Source: a virus
IMG/VR virus record: IMGVR_UViG_3300020165_000195
Location: 1 to 20,536 of that record
Length of the DNA stretch: 20,536 bases
Strand: one strand, 5' to 3'
A model generated the notes under the pieces. The model ran no database searches, had not been told where the DNA came from, and saw only the letters and a list, made by a program, of their open reading frames with translations. The translations under genes were made by a program, and so were the position numbers. Of the stretch, positions 3,881 to 18,854 are shown one piece after another; within the stretch, counting starts at the first letter, position 1; each line of letters starts with the position of its first letter.

Positions 3881-4617
3881 TTCACAGCCCCCAACAGATC
3901 ATGCTTTCTGTCATGACCTTGAAATGACTTAAGCGCATCCCAGTCTGGCTTGCCAACGGACTTCCATTCTCTGCTGATTGCAAAATCCACAACACCTGAC
4001 AGGTCAAAGCCGTGCCTCTTCAAAATGAGAAAGTCTTGGGTGATTACCGTAACCATCTTCTTAGCTGGCTTTCTGCCTTCACGCTCATCAAGCTTGTACT
4101 CCCACCATTTCTTCCAAGCAGACTTACTAACACCTTCCGGTGAAGTGTTAAGGAGGATAGAGCGCCAACATGTTTGTTCTTTTTGATGTTTGTTCTTTAT
4201 GATATTTGTTCTTTGGGTCTGATTACCTTGATCTGGGTTTACTTGATCTGGGTTTACTTGATCTGGGTTTCGATGATCTGGTGGAAAGCGATTCCTAACA
4301 TCAGTCACCAACCAATCCCACCGCACGACATGACCGCTTTCGTTTCTAACAATTTCTCTACGGATGTATCCCGCGCTCTCAAGCTCATCGGTAATGCGCG
4401 TCATTTTGACGTTGCCGACTCCAAATACAGTGCAAAGCTGATTGTTGGTTATTTGCCATTCATCAATATGGCTCAAGAGATAAACAAGAACCCCTAGAGA
4501 CTCTGGACTCAATGAGTCATCTCGCTGTGTGCTTGCTGATTTTGTTTCGGAACCTCGAAGAAGGCTGTTGGGGAGGCGGGTGTAGTCTTGCTTGAGGGTG
4601 GCTCTTCGGTAAATCAT
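3877..4617 (-). CDS. Winged-helix replication initiator (lambda O-like role)
   Basis: A 246-residue protein. Residues about 37-95 form a winged-helix/DnaD-N-like domain (LSPESLGVLVYLLSH, QITNNQLCTVFGVG, KMTRITDELESAGYIRRE). A low-complexity linker at about 112-135 carries NPDQV repeats. A C-terminal helical region (WWEYKLDEREGRKPAKKM, then KRHGFDLSGVVDFAI) resembles phage O-like helicase-recruiting domains. It is directly followed by the primase-helicase with ATGA overlap, the classic initiator/helicase pairing. The linker is encoded by short tandem DNA repeats (4171-4270), in the place lambda keeps its origin. It probably binds those repeats and recruits the helicase. It is the first gene of the minus operon, starting ATG 4615-4617. 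Family assignment is by domain order, not by strong sequence identity. Confidence 0.78.
   Translation of the reverse strand: MIYRRATLKQDYTRLPNSLLRGSETKSASTQRDDSLSPESLGVLVYLLSHIDEWQITNNQLCTVFGVGNVKMTRITDELESAGYIRREIVRNESGHVVRWDWLVTDVRNRFPPDHRNPDQVNPDQVNPDQGNQTQRTNIIKNKHQKEQTCWRSILLNTSPEGVSKSAWKKWWEYKLDEREGRKPAKKMVTVITQDFLILKRHGFDLSGVVDFAISREWKSVGKPDWDALKSFQGHDRKHDLLGAVK
4171..4218. repeat. Three tandem 16-bp repeats inside initiator gene (putative origin iterons)
   Basis: Three consecutive 16-bp units start at 4171, 4187 and 4203 with the shared core TTTGTTCTTT. Units one and two differ at one position; unit three is less exact. Because 16 is not a multiple of three, the encoded protein (QTQRTNIIKNKHQKEQ) does not repeat, so conservation is at DNA level. 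This is AT-rich, as expected for an unwinding element or initiator-binding iterons. It sits directly beside a second, 15-bp repeat set. Confidence 0.65.
4227..4270. repeat. Three tandem 15-bp repeats inside initiator gene (putative origin iterons)
   Basis: The unit CTTGATCTGGGTTTA occurs at 4227-4241 and 4242-4256, and again at 4257-4270 with a variant last base; a degenerate GATCTGG follows at about 4275. The unit encodes NPDQV repeats on the minus strand, so the repeat could arise at protein or DNA level. Position inside the initiator gene and adjacency to the 16-bp set favour an origin, as with the lambda ori iterons in gene O. Confidence 0.6.
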
Positions 4618-10430: not shown

Positions 10431-13400
10431 CTAGCTCTCTGTCGCTAGAAGCTGTTGAATTAACTTCCAACGCTCTTCAAACTCTCTGCCTTTTGCTTCG
10501 CCAAATAAAAGGTCTGACTTCTTAATAGTATTCTTCAGAGTACTGTCTGACATTGCCCATGCCTCATAATCACCCCGAACAAGAGATCTTGCATCTTTTC
10601 TAGTAACGCCGTTAGACCGCAAAACCATCATCAGTTCGGTATCAGTTAAGCCTGAGGATCTTGCCGCTGACACTAGCTTTATCATGCGCTCAAAGCCTTC
10701 TCTTCTTGCGCGAGAGGCTCTTTCAAATGCATTGATTAGATCTCCATTAGATACTTCGTTAGGGTCTCTAAACGTAGATGTGAGAAGCGAGGTGGCATCT
10801 CTCTTATCTTGGTTAAACTCGTATGCTTTGAAGTGCAAGCTAACTTTAGGGTCGAAGGTAGTAGCTCTGAATCCAACTAACGCCAGCATCTCATCGCGCA
10901 TTTCGTATTTTTTACCTGACTTGCTGACTTCCCCAAAAAAAGCCTTACCTATTCTATTGGCATTTTGAAGCGCAGAAGGAGCCATATTTTTAATCATGAA
11001 CCCAGTCATATCTACAGTAATATTAGACGCAGTATCTGCGGGGTTATATATTCTTCCGCCCGAATCTTTTTCATTTATCATTAGGTTGAAGACAGTACCC
11101 GCTGAAATATCCTTACCAAAGAATGGTGATAGCATTTCTTGAGCAGATTGAGCTAAAGCATCATCTACAGGCTGATCTCTTAGTAGCGCATTGATAGGTC
11201 TCTTCCAGTAAGCGTATGGGTCAAGATAGGTCAGGTCTATGTACTCTAAGTCACCTTTCTCGTCTCGACCTGTAACGACTATATTTGAGTTTCTAGACCA
11301 TTCAGGACTCATAAGGCGAATAGCCTCTTCCTCCTCTTCCGAAACATCCCATGCCGCAAATGCCGCCGCTTGGATAGCGTATATACCGCCACTGACCAAA
11401 GCCATACCGGCAAGCCTACGGTGAGCAGAAGCCCTCATATCTGGGTCTGCCATGTCCTGCTTTAGGTACTTGAACATGTTGAAACTAGTTCTAATAATCT
11501 CCGCAGGGAAAGACACAAATGTTCCAGCTAAAGGGAATCGCCTTAACTGTTGCATTGCTCTACCAATTAAACTGTAGGTAGGATAGGTGTTTCGTATTCT
11601 TTCTGCGGCAATAGGTGCGGCTTCTTCGTAGCTAAGACCTTTAGCCTCCATGAGCAAATCCATCTCATTTTGGAATCCTACAATCTTCCAGAAATCATCA
11701 CCAAATTGGTAGAACTTAGCGGCTTTGCTAGCCCACCGTTGCATTTCCGATTTTGCTTTACCAAGCTTTCCCTTAGCCATTTCTGAGCCGACAAGATCAT
11801 TTTGTAGAGCATCAATTCCGGAATCTTCCATCGCTTTAATAAGCTCGCCAGCTACAGGAGTGTCATAAATAACGCCAAGTCTTTTTAGCTCTCTAATGTA
11901 AGCTAACTCGCCTCCTACAGAATTCATATAAGATTTATATACAGCTATTGATTTTTGCGTCTTGCTCCAATCAAAGTGACCATTAGCTATTGTAAAGAAG
12001 CCCGCTGACATAAAGTTTCTAGCAATAGTTGTAGGAGCAATAACTGTTTTGCCGTACTTAACAATGGAGTTAAGGGCAACAATATTGCGATACATGCCGT
12101 CGAGGGAGTCAAGTCCGTTAGCTTCGTCGAATCCCTGCTTTAATTCAGGAGTGACAAAAAATCCATTTAGTGGAGCCATAACACTAGACTGGTCTGCCGC
12201 TAGCTTTACATAAGCATCTGATGGCGCTGTCTCAGCAGTAAATAGGAATACTCCTTCACCTTGCTGTTTAACTTGCTCAAGGAACTTGTGGTTGAAAACC
12301 AACCGGCTTAACTTAGTAGCTGTCTTGACGAAATTAATTCTAGGTTCTTTGTATTCACCTAATAAAGCAAGTATCTCTGGAGCAATCGTGTTGTTCTTTT
12401 TCTTTAGAATAGATAGATCTTTTGCTCCAAGCTTAGAGTTAACAATGAAAGAACCAATGCCATCAAAGGCAGTGCCTTCTTTAAGAATTGTGTTTATAAC
12501 CCTCTCAACATTAGTTGCACCGTTTCTCTCTAAATATGCTTTAGCATCATCCAGTACGTTATCCGGTACGCTTTTTGCCCAATTAGGGTCATCAAAAGCC
12601 CTGTAAGATCGGTTTAAATACTTACCAAGATTAGACTTAAAGGTACTTAGCAAGCTTTGCTTTGCTTCTATTTCTTTAGTTTGTGTTTCACTATCTAGAG
12701 CATCGAGTTGTGATTGGATGACTGTTGAGTAATCCGCTGAGTACTTGTCAATATACCGTCTCATCCGACCAATTACTTCTTTGACTGCCTTAGGCAGATC
12801 GAGAGACTCTAGCTGATCAACAGGCACTTGCAATGCGTCATTTAAAAGAGACTCTGGAACATCAGTTCCTTCAGGATATGCGTTCTTTATTGCCTCATCG
12901 TATGATGCAATGTGCATTCTAATATCTATTTCAACAGCACCAATCTCGCCATCTCTCTTTATCTTAGACTCAAACACCTCATCGTTTAATAATCCTTGAG
13001 GTGCTAGGTTTCGCCTAAAAGTTCTTGATGCCCAGTCAGTAGCTTTATCAATAAAAGATTTCTCTTCTCTGATTCTCGCGTTCTGAGCGGCATTAGCCTC
13101 TTCAGGGGTTAGGTTAGGGGCTGACTCTTGTCTTGGGGGTGAGGAAAGCAGGTCATCACTTTGAGCCTTAGCTGGATCGAACTGGGCGTTTACTGAGCGG
13201 ATGTTCGGAGAACCTTGAGGGAATACAACAACAGTTGACCTAGGACCAGTAGCATTGATAAAGACAGGGTCATTAAGATTTTCAAAAATAACCTGATCGT
13301 AGCCCCTTTTGAACGCTCTATTAACCACTACGTCGGTTGACGTAGGGTTCGCCTGACTATCAAAAGGGTGTGGTATGTCAAAAGCATTATCGCTTTCACT

Positions 13401-16400
13401 AGCGTCTATTACTAAAGGGTTGCGACCTTTTTTTATATAGACAGGATAAATATGCCCTCTATGATTCCCTTCTGATTCTTCAAGTAATGACCCTCCGGCA
13501 GGGTCAGATCCTGCGTATTGGTTTGCAACCTCGCTGTTATCTGTCAAATAAATGCCAGCACTTCTGTGACCAACTTTAAAGTTTCTATACCCCATTAGGG
13601 TTTCTTTGCCAGACACTAAAGAGCCATGGTAATAAACAGTATCCGTATCAAACCCCTGAGCCTTAGCTTGCATCATTCGCTCAGGGTTTCTTCGAGGTGG
13701 TGAGCTTAGGAAAGCTACTTCTTGAGGAGGAACCCCAAGCTTCTTGGAGTTCTTTTGAATAAAGAGATTTAACTTGGTATCACGAGCTTCAGCTAGGCTT
13801 TTTGCGATTCCTTCAGCTTGCTGGAAATCACTAAGGCGCTGTTTGATAGACCCATGCGCTCGTTGAATTCTCGCGTTTCCTTGCCGCGTAAGATCTGACG
13901 CGGGACTTTTCCTTCGTAACGCGGCAATGATTTGCTTTTCGGTGAGGTCTCTGACCTTTCCATTTTGTTTCCTCTGGACTTTGCCAATTAGTTCTTGAGC
14001 TTGTTCAGTATATAAAGATTCTTTGAAAGAAGCAAAAACATCGTCGTAGTTTTGAATTTCAGAATAGCCAGCAGGTTGCCACTGAGCGTCTTTAGTGCCG
14101 ATATTAGTTATGCCTGAATCATCAACAACCAATATCTGGTCAGCCGCTAAAGCAATCTCATTCATATCTGGCGTGACAGGATCAAACGTCTCTTGATCAA
14201 AAGCCAAAACATTAAACTCGTAACCATTCGGGTAACGAGTAAAGTTAACCTCAACCCCTTCCGGCAATGCGTTAGCAAATGCTTCTATCTGATCTCTTGA
14301 GAGAGCATCTAAGGTTTCTACGAACACCTGACTGGTTTCCGTGTAACCCTCTCTAAGTCCGTCAGCGATATCGATAATGTGTGACGCAGGAACTGCATCC
14401 TGATCCCACTGCTTAGACAGTGAAGTCATTAGAACATTTAATTGATCACTTGTTACAGAAGCCGGAACAGGCACTCGAATATTGGGAGATACATCACCCT
14501 CATAAGTACCACCCACAGCAAGAGGAACGCCTCCTGTTGAGGTGGAAACTCTTGTGGGCTTGGCATCAACCTTAGACAGACCGAGAGCCTTAAAGTACGC
14601 TGTGAATGGATTGGTTGCGCCCTGAGAAGACTTATTTAAAAGCGTGGCAAAAATAGAGTGGTACTCATCGGCAATTTTTTGGTCGTTCTGCTCAATTGCG
14701 GCATCAAATACTGCTCTGGCGTCCTTACCTATATCATTGCGAAGGCTGTTAATTTCAGCGGTAATAGTTCTTTTTTCTCGGAAAGTAGCCGTTGTAGGGC
14801 TTAGTGCCGCAGGAACTCTTGGGTCTAGCAGTATTTCTTTAGTAATTTTGTCGTCAGGAACCGCTATACCAGCTTCCTTTAATATCTGTATTGCGCCTTT
14901 TCTGTCTCTTCGACCAGATGAGTCTTTTCGTAAGAGCGACATACTGTAGTCATCAACATCATTTACTCCACCAGATATTTCCTCAGCAGAGGCTGATTGA
15001 TAGGCGGCTAAAGCATCCGCGTCAGACACGCCTTCAGCATTCTTGTCTTGAATAAATTCATTTTTGTATCTTTGCTCAACCCAGCCAAGAGCCTGTAATT
15101 GCCATGTTTCGTATGGTTGCGCTCCATCAGGAAGATTGGCGTTTAGTTTATCTCTTAACCCTATATAGAACCGCGACATCACCTCATACAACTCAGGGTT
15201 CTTGCCAATGGATTCGCCGTCAGTATTAAATGTTGCGGCTACCTGTCTATCGTTTGTTGATAGGGTGGGCTTAGACATACCAAGAACTAAATGCATCGTG
15301 CCGCCAAAGGAACCTGTTTTTAATCCTTCAAGATCAGAAGTTTTTAGGGCATCCGTTACGTTTTTCTTAATAACAAGATCGTTATCTATTGGCTTACCTT
15401 GCAAATAATTAGCGTAACTCGCAATAGTGCGATGCATGTTTACAAAAGGGTTTGCTACAGGACTTGTTGCCGCCACGACAGATATAAATTGTTTTATCTC
15501 TTTGTTTGATAAATCAGGTAATACTTCTCGCATAGCTTCCGCTGAAACTTCATACCAGTACCTTGCATTATCAGATAGCTGAAGCGCACGATCCCAGAAC
15601 TCAACCGTATTAGCATTAATGCCCAAACGCTCTACCGTCTGCTTGGCTAGATTACCAACCTGCCCCTCCGCATTAGTGTCTGTTAGGCGAATAGCCTCAT
15701 CAAAAATTGAATCAAGATCCGCTTGAGGTATATCAAGACCATCTCCACGACGAGACAAATCAAGGTCTGAGTATCTTCCTCCAGAAATTGTTTTAAGAGG
15801 CTGTCCTTCTTTGTACTCGCCAGCAATTCTTTCGCTGTAGGGGATATGCTTTTGAAGCTGAACTAATGATCGAACTTTTGCTTGATTGTAGGCAGGGTCA
15901 ATTTCTTGAAGCCTATTTAAACTTTCCTGCTCTTTAGCTGGCGAAAAAAGAAAGTCATCATCAAAGGATGCAAGATCATCTTCAATATCTAGCTGACTTA
16001 CCTCTTCATCTAATCGCTGTTCTTCTCTGGCTTGTTGCTCTTGAAAATCGGAGTCTAGTTGTACAGGCTGTCCAGTATCGACCCTGTCTTCACGTTCGGG
16101 CGATCCTTCCACGATGGGACTGGCTTTTTCCTGACGAGCGCCATCTCCGCGAGAGAGTTGATCTCCTTCTCGGTCTTGAACTTGAACGCCTCTGGACTCG
16201 GCTCGTGACCGAACTTCTTCTTGTACTGTTCCAAGCTCTCCGACAGTGGCTTCGGCTTGATTGTCATTTTGGGCATTTTGATTAGTCTCCTTTGAAGGCT
16301 CTCTGAGCAACTTCACAAGATAATTATACGTTGTTGGGGCTGAACTTTCGAGTAGCTCAGGATTAGAGTGCAATACTGCAAACGCTTGAGCAAACGCCTC

Positions 16401-18854
16401 TTTCTTTAATACGTTAATCGCTGACTCAGCTTTATCAGGTCTAGCATTGACCCAGCTAAATATATGCCCAAACGGATACGACATCTCTCTACCAAGCTCA
16501 GTCTTTTGCTCATAGTTTTGACCAAGCTCAAATAAGACATCACCAAGCTCAACGTCTAAACCATTGGCTCCCATCTCGTTTATCTCGGCATAAAACTCCA
16601 CGCTGTTGTCTGTAATGTTGTTATTAACGTCAAACGCATGACCAATTTCATGAGCAATGGTGTAGCGAATTTTTTCGGCGTCACTAGCATTATTAGCCAG
16701 ATTGTTAACATAGCCTTTCTTTAAAGAAACATAGCCAGCGTTCATGCTGTAGGAGCCATCACTATTCTTCATGCTGGGGTGTGACGCAGGGTCATGTATC
16801 CCTATGCCTTGGAAGTCGTTTAAAACCGACTTAGGCATACCCATTTCAATAAGATCCACAACGGCATTTAAGATTTCGTTTTTAGGGGCATCATCACCGT
16901 AAAACTCTTCAGCACCAACTACAGGATTACCATCCACTACTTCTGGATTTGCAATACTTAAAGTGGTTTTTAATCGCTCTTCATCGATAGGCGTTCTTTC
17001 CGCGCCTAGCTCCTTATTAACTTCAGCTATGGCTTCCGGTAAGGAAACTTGAGCAGGTCTTCTTACTGAGCCAACATACTTAGATTCAGAAAAAAACTTT
17101 TTATCTGTCGGCTTAAACAGCATTGATGATTGAACAGACTCTTCAATCTCTAAAACAGCAGACTGGTTATCGGTCTCTGGCAGTAATTCAGCAACCTCTA
17201 GCGCCTCATCAACTGAGACTTCATCGTTAATTGGTGTGCCAGACTCCGCACCTCTTTGTACAATCACTTCTTGGATTGAGACAGGTAAATCGTCTAATGG
17301 TATTAACGTACCTGTGTAGCCCTGAGGTTTGTTTATTTGCGCCTCAATGCGCTGTACTATCTCAGGTTCTCTTATTGTTTTGTTTTTACCTTTCTCATCC
17401 CTTACAGCAAGACTAATAGGGTTTCCTTTATCGTCTCTTCGTATTGTGGTGAGGGTAAGTTCTTTTCCCCGCAAAATAAATTTTTTGCTTTCAGGATCAA
17501 TTGTTACATCGTTTTCAAAAACAACATTTTCGTCTGTCGGGATAATACCCAACTGCTCTGGTGACTGTGCTTCACCGCTTTCAATGAAGATATCTTCATC
17601 CTGAGATACAACAAAAAATCCTTCATCTCTTTTTGTTAAAACACCTTTTACACCCTCATAAGTAACGTCCTGTCCAGATAGAGAGTCTAGAGAAGGGGCT
17701 TTGTCTTGAGGAAGGTCAATAACCTCTGTCTGTTCAGTTTTTTGAGGTTCGTTTTGGACTGGCTCTTCTTCAGCAAGACGTTGATCAGGAATCTTATTAG
17801 CGTCACCATCATATTCCAAAAGATTTGTAGGCGAACTTATTTCACTGCGCGGATCTTTCGCTATACCGGAAACACCACCTATTGCCGCACCGCCGATGAT
17901 TCCCGCAACTGCTGAGTTAAGATATTGTGAAAGCTTATCTTCCGAAGTCATTCTCTCAAGCCAAGAATCTTCTATTTCAGGATTGTCGCTTCTGATATAT
18001 TCAAGGGTAGCGTTTTGTATAACCTCTTGCAGTCCCTCAACAACGCCCTCCGCTCCGGCGCTTTTAGCTCCCTGTTTTATAATTCTTTTAGCCATGCTGG
18101 GTTGCTTGGCTATGTTTCCAGCTATCGCCTCTGAGGCGTCCTTAAATGTCTTTTGAGGCAATATTCGTTTTAATGCTCTCATTGGGGTGTACTGATCTAA
18201 AGCGCCGCTTGCTACACCTGTAATTAAGGCGGCTATTGGGGCTTCTTCACCACCTTCTTCTAATACTTTTGTAAACGATTCACCAGCGCCAGCGGCTGTA
18301 CCGAAAGCAAGCGCACCACCTATCTGCCCCCTTACTGCCTTTTTGCCAAGCGCCTCCTGACCTGCCTTTGTTTTTGCAAAGTTTTTTGCGCCCTGTCTTT
18401 TGGCTAACTTCTGCGCTGAAGGCTTTATCGCCTTATCCATCGCTTTGGCGGCAATCTTTTTTAAACCACCTTTTGCTATTGCTCCACCTGCCGCACCACT
18501 GAGTCCACCGCCAAGCAAGCTAGAGCCTAAATTACCGATAATGTATGCAGTGTAATTAATGCCATCAACGAACCCATCGATCTCTTCTAGGCTACCAACT
18601 GCGGCTTCATTTCTCATTGCATCAGTCATTTGCTCGTTGTAATACTGCATGCCATCAACGAACCACTCATCATTGCCAAACAAGCTACCAGCCAAGGCTT
18701 TACCGCCACCGCCAATAAGCCCTTGAAGCTGATCAATGCCAGCACTAAAGCCCTTACCTATCTCGCTTAAAGGGTTGGTATCCTCTTCTCTATCCTTGCT
18801 GACCCTAAGAGAGGTCGGCTTGCGCGAGGCATATAGGTTTTCGGAATAAAGCAT
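10431..18854 (-). CDS. Giant polyvalent virion protein: metalloprotease + ADP-ribosyltransferase-like + LPD38-like domains
   Basis: A 2807-residue protein of the phage polyvalent type, thought to be packaged and ejected with the DNA. Residues about 40-340 are Gly/Ala-rich and hydrophobic (SSLLGGGLSGAAGGAIAKGG), suggesting membrane insertion. Small beta-rich segments follow (~390-500). A zinc-metallopeptidase motif HEIGH lies at 735-739 (TIAHEIGHAFDV). A low-complexity charged linker runs ~850-965. A helical unknown domain spans ~1040-1290 (ARYWYEVSAEAM, ATSPVANPF). An ART-like domain spans ~1725-1900: VYYHGS with H1743, AGIYLTDNSEVANQYAG, and E1858 in IFENLN. The C-terminal ~600 residues resemble LPD38 (FVSFPAEIIRTSFNMFKYL near 2445). 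Motifs FLFSP, FLSSPPR and LLSSPPR punctuate the linkers. ATG 18854 has GGAG about 7 nt upstream. I see no lysozyme or transglycosylase motif. Confidence 0.88.
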   Translation of the reverse strand: MLYSENLYASRKPTSLRVSKDREEDTNPLSEIGKGFSAGIDQLQGLIGGGGKALAGSLFGNDEWFVDGMQYYNEQMTDAMRNEAAVGSLEEIDGFVDGINYTAYIIGNLGSSLLGGGLSGAAGGAIAKGGLKKIAAKAMDKAIKPSAQKLAKRQGAKNFAKTKAGQEALGKKAVRGQIGGALAFGTAAGAGESFTKVLEEGGEEAPIAALITGVASGALDQYTPMRALKRILPQKTFKDASEAIAGNIAKQPSMAKRIIKQGAKSAGAEGVVEGLQEVIQNATLEYIRSDNPEIEDSWLERMTSEDKLSQYLNSAVAGIIGGAAIGGVSGIAKDPRSEISSPTNLLEYDGDANKIPDQRLAEEEPVQNEPQKTEQTEVIDLPQDKAPSLDSLSGQDVTYEGVKGVLTKRDEGFFVVSQDEDIFIESGEAQSPEQLGIIPTDENVVFENDVTIDPESKKFILRGKELTLTTIRRDDKGNPISLAVRDEKGKNKTIREPEIVQRIEAQINKPQGYTGTLIPLDDLPVSIQEVIVQRGAESGTPINDEVSVDEALEVAELLPETDNQSAVLEIEESVQSSMLFKPTDKKFFSESKYVGSVRRPAQVSLPEAIAEVNKELGAERTPIDEERLKTTLSIANPEVVDGNPVVGAEEFYGDDAPKNEILNAVVDLIEMGMPKSVLNDFQGIGIHDPASHPSMKNSDGSYSMNAGYVSLKKGYVNNLANNASDAEKIRYTIAHEIGHAFDVNNNITDNSVEFYAEINEMGANGLDVELGDVLFELGQNYEQKTELGREMSYPFGHIFSWVNARPDKAESAINVLKKEAFAQAFAVLHSNPELLESSAPTTYNYLVKLLREPSKETNQNAQNDNQAEATVGELGTVQEEVRSRAESRGVQVQDREGDQLSRGDGARQEKASPIVEGSPEREDRVDTGQPVQLDSDFQEQQAREEQRLDEEVSQLDIEDDLASFDDDFLFSPAKEQESLNRLQEIDPAYNQAKVRSLVQLQKHIPYSERIAGEYKEGQPLKTISGGRYSDLDLSRRGDGLDIPQADLDSIFDEAIRLTDTNAEGQVGNLAKQTVERLGINANTVEFWDRALQLSDNARYWYEVSAEAMREVLPDLSNKEIKQFISVVAATSPVANPFVNMHRTIASYANYLQGKPIDNDLVIKKNVTDALKTSDLEGLKTGSFGGTMHLVLGMSKPTLSTNDRQVAATFNTDGESIGKNPELYEVMSRFYIGLRDKLNANLPDGAQPYETWQLQALGWVEQRYKNEFIQDKNAEGVSDADALAAYQSASAEEISGGVNDVDDYSMSLLRKDSSGRRDRKGAIQILKEAGIAVPDDKITKEILLDPRVPAALSPTTATFREKRTITAEINSLRNDIGKDARAVFDAAIEQNDQKIADEYHSIFATLLNKSSQGATNPFTAYFKALGLSKVDAKPTRVSTSTGGVPLAVGGTYEGDVSPNIRVPVPASVTSDQLNVLMTSLSKQWDQDAVPASHIIDIADGLREGYTETSQVFVETLDALSRDQIEAFANALPEGVEVNFTRYPNGYEFNVLAFDQETFDPVTPDMNEIALAADQILVVDDSGITNIGTKDAQWQPAGYSEIQNYDDVFASFKESLYTEQAQELIGKVQRKQNGKVRDLTEKQIIAALRRKSPASDLTRQGNARIQRAHGSIKQRLSDFQQAEGIAKSLAEARDTKLNLFIQKNSKKLGVPPQEVAFLSSPPRRNPERMMQAKAQGFDTDTVYYHGSLVSGKETLMGYRNFKVGHRSAGIYLTDNSEVANQYAGSDPAGGSLLEESEGNHRGHIYPVYIKKGRNPLVIDASESDNAFDIPHPFDSQANPTSTDVVVNRAFKRGYDQVIFENLNDPVFINATGPRSTVVVFPQGSPNIRSVNAQFDPAKAQSDDLLSSPPRQESAPNLTPEEANAAQNARIREEKSFIDKATDWASRTFRRNLAPQGLLNDEVFESKIKRDGEIGAVEIDIRMHIASYDEAIKNAYPEGTDVPESLLNDALQVPVDQLESLDLPKAVKEVIGRMRRYIDKYSADYSTVIQSQLDALDSETQTKEIEAKQSLLSTFKSNLGKYLNRSYRAFDDPNWAKSVPDNVLDDAKAYLERNGATNVERVINTILKEGTAFDGIGSFIVNSKLGAKDLSILKKKNNTIAPEILALLGEYKEPRINFVKTATKLSRLVFNHKFLEQVKQQGEGVFLFTAETAPSDAYVKLAADQSSVMAPLNGFFVTPELKQGFDEANGLDSLDGMYRNIVALNSIVKYGKTVIAPTTIARNFMSAGFFTIANGHFDWSKTQKSIAVYKSYMNSVGGELAYIRELKRLGVIYDTPVAGELIKAMEDSGIDALQNDLVGSEMAKGKLGKAKSEMQRWASKAAKFYQFGDDFWKIVGFQNEMDLLMEAKGLSYEEAAPIAAERIRNTYPTYSLIGRAMQQLRRFPLAGTFVSFPAEIIRTSFNMFKYLKQDMADPDMRASAHRRLAGMALVSGGIYAIQAAAFAAWDVSEEEEEAIRLMSPEWSRNSNIVVTGRDEKGDLEYIDLTYLDPYAYWKRPINALLRDQPVDDALAQSAQEMLSPFFGKDISAGTVFNLMINEKDSGGRIYNPADTASNITVDMTGFMIKNMAPSALQNANRIGKAFFGEVSKSGKKYEMRDEMLALVGFRATTFDPKVSLHFKAYEFNQDKRDATSLLTSTFRDPNEVSNGDLINAFERASRARREGFERMIKLVSAARSSGLTDTELMMVLRSNGVTRKDARSLVRGDYEAWAMSDSTLKNTIKKSDLLFGEAKGREFEERWKLIQQLLATES
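16055..16276 (-). CDS. Nested overlapping gene inside the polyvalent gene (73 aa)
   Basis: A 73-codon frame on the same strand as the giant gene, shifted by one base and entirely inside it (host codons about 860-934). The ATG at 16274-16276 has a strong AAAGGAG 10 nt upstream. The product looks like a real folded protein: MPKMTIKPKPLSESLEQYKK, then KFGHEPSPEAFKF, INSLAEMALVRKKPVP, SWKDRPNVKTGSILDSLYN, with spaced aromatic, Pro and Gly residues. By contrast the giant protein here is low-complexity Glu/Arg/Gln/Asp text, as expected of an overprinted linker. Its function is unknown; a small virion or scaffold-type protein is plausible. The main doubt is that no conservation test could be run. 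Confidence 0.6.
   Translation of the reverse strand: MPKMTIKPKPLSESLEQYKKKFGHEPSPEAFKFKTEKEINSLAEMALVRKKPVPSWKDRPNVKTGSILDSLYN

Follow-up and report, generated by a model that had tools for sequence, protein, structure and literature searches.

The embedded architecture of Rz1 within Rz, known from the lambda spanins (PMC6139136), is the closest precedent for the element described here, a small open reading frame (ORF) nested in the giant polyvalent protein gene of a virus. The analysed stretch of DNA, hereafter referred to as the window, is the 20,536-base virus record IMGVR_UViG_3300020165_000195. As in the Rz1/Rz pair, a larger phage gene contains, in its +1 frame, a complete small gene that possesses its own start and is widely conserved. 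In contrast to Rz1, an outer-membrane lipoprotein encoded in a lysis cassette, the nested product contains neither a cysteine nor a lipobox; in contrast to Rz, the host is a multi-kilobase polyvalent gene, and there is no sequence relation to the Rz1/Rz pair. An assignment as an Rz1-type o-spanin was rejected, since the charged and probably mainly helical product possesses neither the signal sequence nor the lipobox cysteine of this class. As judged from its sequence and those of its relatives, the nested gene is real, conserved and hitherto unannotated; it is known in kind, but new in its family, its host and its setting.

In overprinted viral genes generally, two frames share the same DNA and selection acts mostly on one of them (PMC8227390), and the present locus resembles them in this respect. 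Overprinting is usually pictured as the recent origin of a nested gene within an older host gene. The present locus departs from this picture: the nested protein is the conserved one, with a predicted fold, the host segment is a tether predicted to be disordered, and a stand-alone homologue of the nested gene exists. The host protein corresponds to the polyvalent proteins with zincin-like metallopeptidases (PMC5512222), as it is a giant multidomain protein with such a metallopeptidase (invariant HExxH, well-predicted fold) and an ART-PolyVal domain. The words 'overlap' and 'frame' do not occur in the text of PMC5512222, and nested genes are apparently not described there.

The nested open reading frame and its relatives

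On the minus strand, positions 16276-16055 translate into MPKMTIKPKPLSESLEQYKKKFGHEPSPEAFKFKTEKEINSLAEMALVRKKPVPSWKDRPNVKTGSILDSLYN*, a product of 73 residues, and the start of this ORF is arranged in the order AAAGGAG (16293-16287), ACTAATCAAA and ATG. The letters of the window thus bear out the initial annotation, which had pointed to a same-strand ORF shifted by +1 with AAAGGAG 10 nt ahead of its ATG. That the host frame is of low complexity at this site was likewise correctly recognized: the segment that follows the HEIGH metalloprotease motif (16638-16652, minus strand, just upstream of the nested ORF) is rich in G, E, S and Q, and F, W, Y, C, H, K and M are almost absent from it. AlphaFold2 predicts a confident metalloprotease fold, followed by a tail of low confidence throughout exactly at the nested gene (predicted local distance difference test score, pLDDT, below 50), and this predicted disorder supports the proposed location of the nested gene in a tolerant linker. 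The open length by itself is weak evidence for a nested gene, because about 8% of the resamplings that retain the amino acids and the codon usage of the host are open as well (stop-free probability ~0.08 in the window, 0.03-0.50 in relatives).

Direct homology searches of phages, plasmids and genomes with the 73-residue sequence returned nothing usable: phage records gave no match at E ≤ 1, plasmids yielded matches only at E > 1, and no Pfam, PHROGs or NCBIfam profile matched above threshold. The expectation that such a gene would be systematically missed fits these results as far as the named libraries and phage records are concerned. Gene callers normally reject overlaps of this type; hence, a long-kept family in uncultivated phages is without a profile in any library searched.

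The close relatives of the window are 96-100% identical, and the diverged nested family was revealed only through relatives reached via the host gene. When the C-terminus of the host protein served as the query and the nested sequence was left unused, diverged phages were reached, and all seven of those with the metalloprotease also carry the nested ORF (37-51% identity) with the host frame open. A DNA pattern of the nested motif matched 31 contigs, in all of which the ORF is nested in the same frame. To avoid circularity, a second scan was keyed on a pattern of the metalloprotease helix only. Among the 39 loci that it added, the nested ORF is present in 31; a further locus is a chance match, another is cut off, and the remaining six fall into a separate metalloprotease subclade, which has another conserved +1 ORF at the corresponding site. 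Altogether, the nested ORF, here termed family A, is carried by 57 loci matching the protease key; in every one of them it is complete, lies wholly within the longer coding sequence and occupies frame +1. Interruption of the nested frame by stops in homologous polyvalent genes, which the initial annotation had named as a point against the gene, was not encountered in these 57 loci.

Selection on the two frames and initiation signals

The selection analysis comprised 38 distinct nested sequences, which form 618 divergent pairs. In 618 of 618 pairs, the similarity of the nested proteins lies above that in every resampling that preserves the host protein (mean z 8.3; 2.21 observed versus -0.32 expected BLOSUM per position), and the host proteins are about as similar as the nested protein alone would lead one to expect (z 1.6). 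It should be noted that common ancestry could inflate the z values of such resamplings, and two controls were applied for this reason. Many other +1/+2 ORFs, which were rejected as shadows of host conservation, mostly reach median z values of 2-5, and the host wobble position is the most variable one in them. Within the nested gene, the variation at host codon positions 1/2/3 amounts to 0.41/0.36/0.29, so that the wobble position is the least variable (0.34 once the columns used for the search are dropped); the corresponding values for the adjacent metalloprotease in the same genomes are 0.52/0.41/0.68, with the wobble position as the most variable. The protease-keyed set exhibits the same order over the nested gene (0.49/0.44/0.39). 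Hence, purifying selection in the nested frame exceeds that from the host frame, and the synonymous variation of the host, whose persistence would have counted against a gene, is strongly reduced. Stops are absent from the antisense frame in the window, but this holds for only 3 of the 38 distinct sequences. The host would read the DNA of the nested gene as a disordered tether that joins the metalloprotease to the next exchangeable domain, and the nested frame would thus bear most of the selection.

In all 38 distinct sequences, a start codon is located 19-22 codons ahead of the FGH core, and a match of at least 4 nt to the Shine-Dalgarno (SD) sequence precedes it in 35 of them, as compared with 23% of background ATG/GTG codons. 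In 34 of the 38, moreover, the region around the start has less structure than the remainder of the gene. The nested gene therefore possesses, on the evidence of its sequence, its own initiation signals, and ribosomes would start at the internal SD sequence and ATG/GTG on the mRNA that also encodes the host protein. In our view, the ORF is very probably a genuine small gene that is independently translated and lies entirely within the giant, presumably late gene of a putatively injected polyvalent protein; this judgement covers the reality of the gene and its separate translation, not its function.

Origin and possible role of the nested gene

A single stand-alone homologue was found, in a gammaproteobacterial genome. 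It encodes 84 amino acids, is preceded by a GGAGG SD sequence and overlaps the next (second small) gene in a small integrative element located between a tRNA-Lys gene and a tyrosine integrase gene. A stand-alone relative, the lack of which had been envisaged as a further objection, is thus available, even though it is the only one and derives from a bacterial integrative element. On account of its occurrence there, insertion of an already existing gene and de novo overprinting are equally likely; there is about an even chance that a pre-existing stand-alone gene of a mobile element was inserted into the linker and that the host reads through it. Such read-through would need little adaptation, because nested genes shuffled for synonymous codons leave the host frame open 46% of the time. 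On the other side, more than 1,000 sampled genomes contained no further stand-alone family A homologue, and none was found in cultured phages or plasmids. The insertion reading concerns the origin of the gene only and is compatible with a real, separately translated family.

The predicted product of about 73 residues would be mainly helical with the core Y-x3-FGH-x-P-x2-E ... A-x2-AL ... KP-x3-W-x2-R. The identities of the nested protein and of the metalloprotease correlate strongly (r 0.89); the partial correlation of the two given the N-terminus amounts to 0.76, and that of the N-terminus given the metalloprotease to 0.31. The host gene of the L003 group switches to another sequence immediately beyond the linker (near position 15952 of the window), and the metalloprotease and the nested gene stay together; in L064, the linker is more than 100 codons longer and the nested gene is still kept. 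The nested gene thus appears to travel with the metalloprotease module, and one metalloprotease subclade would have inherited it from its ancestor. The divergence correlation, together with the presence of an unrelated nested family (family B) beside another subclade, is suggestive of a dedicated partner, for example an inhibitor or a chaperone. According to a proposal in PMC5512222, polyvalent metallopeptidases process the giant protein either prior to its injection or afterwards. The most likely function, which we put forward tentatively, is that of a small partner of the protease or of the polyvalent protein; it would be produced in parallel with the giant protein and would hold the metalloprotease inactive, or chaperone it, until packaging or injection.

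It is also quite possible, albeit short of probable, that the gene is real and its product is unrelated to the metalloprotease (for instance, in counter-defence or host takeover), so that it is merely cargo in a tolerant site. Disordered linkers tolerate cargo, and other nested families occupy other linkers (E, and the candidates C and D); however, family A follows one metalloprotease subclade and family B another. Several further points weigh against a real gene with a dedicated partner role. All nested copies lie in uncultivated metagenomic contigs; the structure predicted for the nested protein is of moderate quality (pLDDT 79.5, predicted template modelling score 0.52), and fold searches with it returned no fold match; the shared travel with the metalloprotease may simply reflect physical linkage. 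Moreover, the closest pair (the window versus L003) is uninformative, since its 4 differences in the ORF comprise three non-synonymous and one synonymous change in the nested frame, and change three codons of the host, all non-synonymously. Substitution counts among close relatives were set aside as too few to use.

A programmed +1 frameshift, which would yield a metalloprotease-nested fusion rather than a separate protein, is very improbable. The relative frame is always the same, the position is always just after the metalloprotease, and several members have the nested frame open further upstream, all of which a frameshift would accommodate; yet start codon and SD sequence are conserved, and in-frame stops 1-2 codons before the start in L050, L064, L057, L074 and L071 leave little room for a fusion. 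Although openness is not rare in a single sequence, a chance ORF in a low-complexity, GC-richer linker, held open only by the amino-acid bias of the host, can practically be dismissed in view of the sequence conservation, the codon-position pattern, the conserved start and SD sequence and the antisense control.

Further nested families and the modular host gene

An all-against-all test of nested ORFs across all loci returned families A, B and E as strong cases, and C, D and F as candidates. The profiles of families A and B are unrelated. Family B is a conserved +1 nested ORF of 56-58 amino acids (e.g., MNRKQQEQQAQQRQALLESKFSPQELLKVQQFNPKLAQNALMSAELRDSKIEVLEK) just after the metalloprotease; in divergent pairs, its nested identity is 0.42-0.58 versus 0.16-0.37 for the host. 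Its match to Ddi2_HDD is weak and below the cut-off. Family E, a +1 ORF of 63-65 amino acids with the pattern 'RExYL..AYPDR.LDP...EFLQ', lies in another linker; it reaches a z of 7.4, the host wobble position is the least variable, and SD-like sequences are present. Stand-alone homologues of family E were searched for and none was found. Candidate family C comprises 20 loci (including L018:9264), and the host frame is also conserved in them. The locations of the features discussed here are compiled in Table 1.

Table 1. Location of the nested gene, its host gene and further nested families
Feature	Location	Strand	Remarks
Nested gene (family A)	16055..16276	-	73 codons plus stop; +1 frame of host gene
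Shine-Dalgarno AAAGGAG	16287..16293	-	10 nt before nested ATG
Host-frame linker under nested gene	16029..16289	-	predicted disordered; pLDDT below 50 throughout
Zincin-like metalloprotease domain of host protein	16290..16766	-	weak sub-threshold ATLF match; invariant HExxH; AlphaFold2 pLDDT mostly 75-96
Host giant polyvalent protein gene	10431..18854	-	2807 amino acids; ART-PolyVal; phrog_22602 virion structural protein
Host ADP-ribosyltransferase domain (ART-PolyVal)	13218..13637	-	host amino acids 1740-1879; above profile cut-off
Conserved C-terminal virion structural region of host protein	10503..12692	-	phrog_22602 match
Candidate second nested +1 ORF (family D, 56 amino acids)	13793..13963	-	host also conserved there
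Family B loci	L093, L097, L100, L105, L108, L123		
Family E loci	L015:5073, L019:9201, L099	-	
Integrative element with the only stand-alone homologue	G129:C7 about 181,000-187,100 (L082 17013 to L083 3179)		

Other linkers thus appear, from their sequences, to hold similar nested genes. A wider pattern is conceivable, and we regard it as a serious though not yet a probable proposition: the linkers of polyvalent ejection proteins may constitute a hidden coding layer, in which unrelated +1 genes (A, B, E, possibly C, D and F) are overprinted in inter-domain tethers, are transferred together with the adjacent effector module and code for a partner or inhibitor dedicated to it. The locus offers a clear example, open to experimental test, of an overlap in which the small protein would be the conserved partner and the long frame the passive tether, and it suggests that more such genes may lie in disordered linkers, both of polyvalent proteins and of other ejection proteins.

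The host metalloprotease matches ATLF only below the cut-off of that profile. The C-terminus of the host protein also matches a protein of Cellulophaga phage phi18:3 annotated by tandem mass spectrometry. In the relative G035, the giant gene is the last gene of a podovirus-like late operon, and an integrase-like gene (identified by eye) follows it on the opposite strand. A sharp recombination boundary lies near position 15952 of the window (minus strand; position 4585 of the reverse complement), just after the nested gene and the linker; across it, relatives exhibit ~97-98% identity, then a different module, and then ~90% identity again. The linker motif FLSSPPR is repeated in the host protein, both in the window (amino acids 1717 and 1904) and in L016 (amino acids 1448 and 1616). 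In this lineage, its copies flank those modules of the giant protein that are exchangeable, and the motif could be a protease cleavage site or a recombination site.
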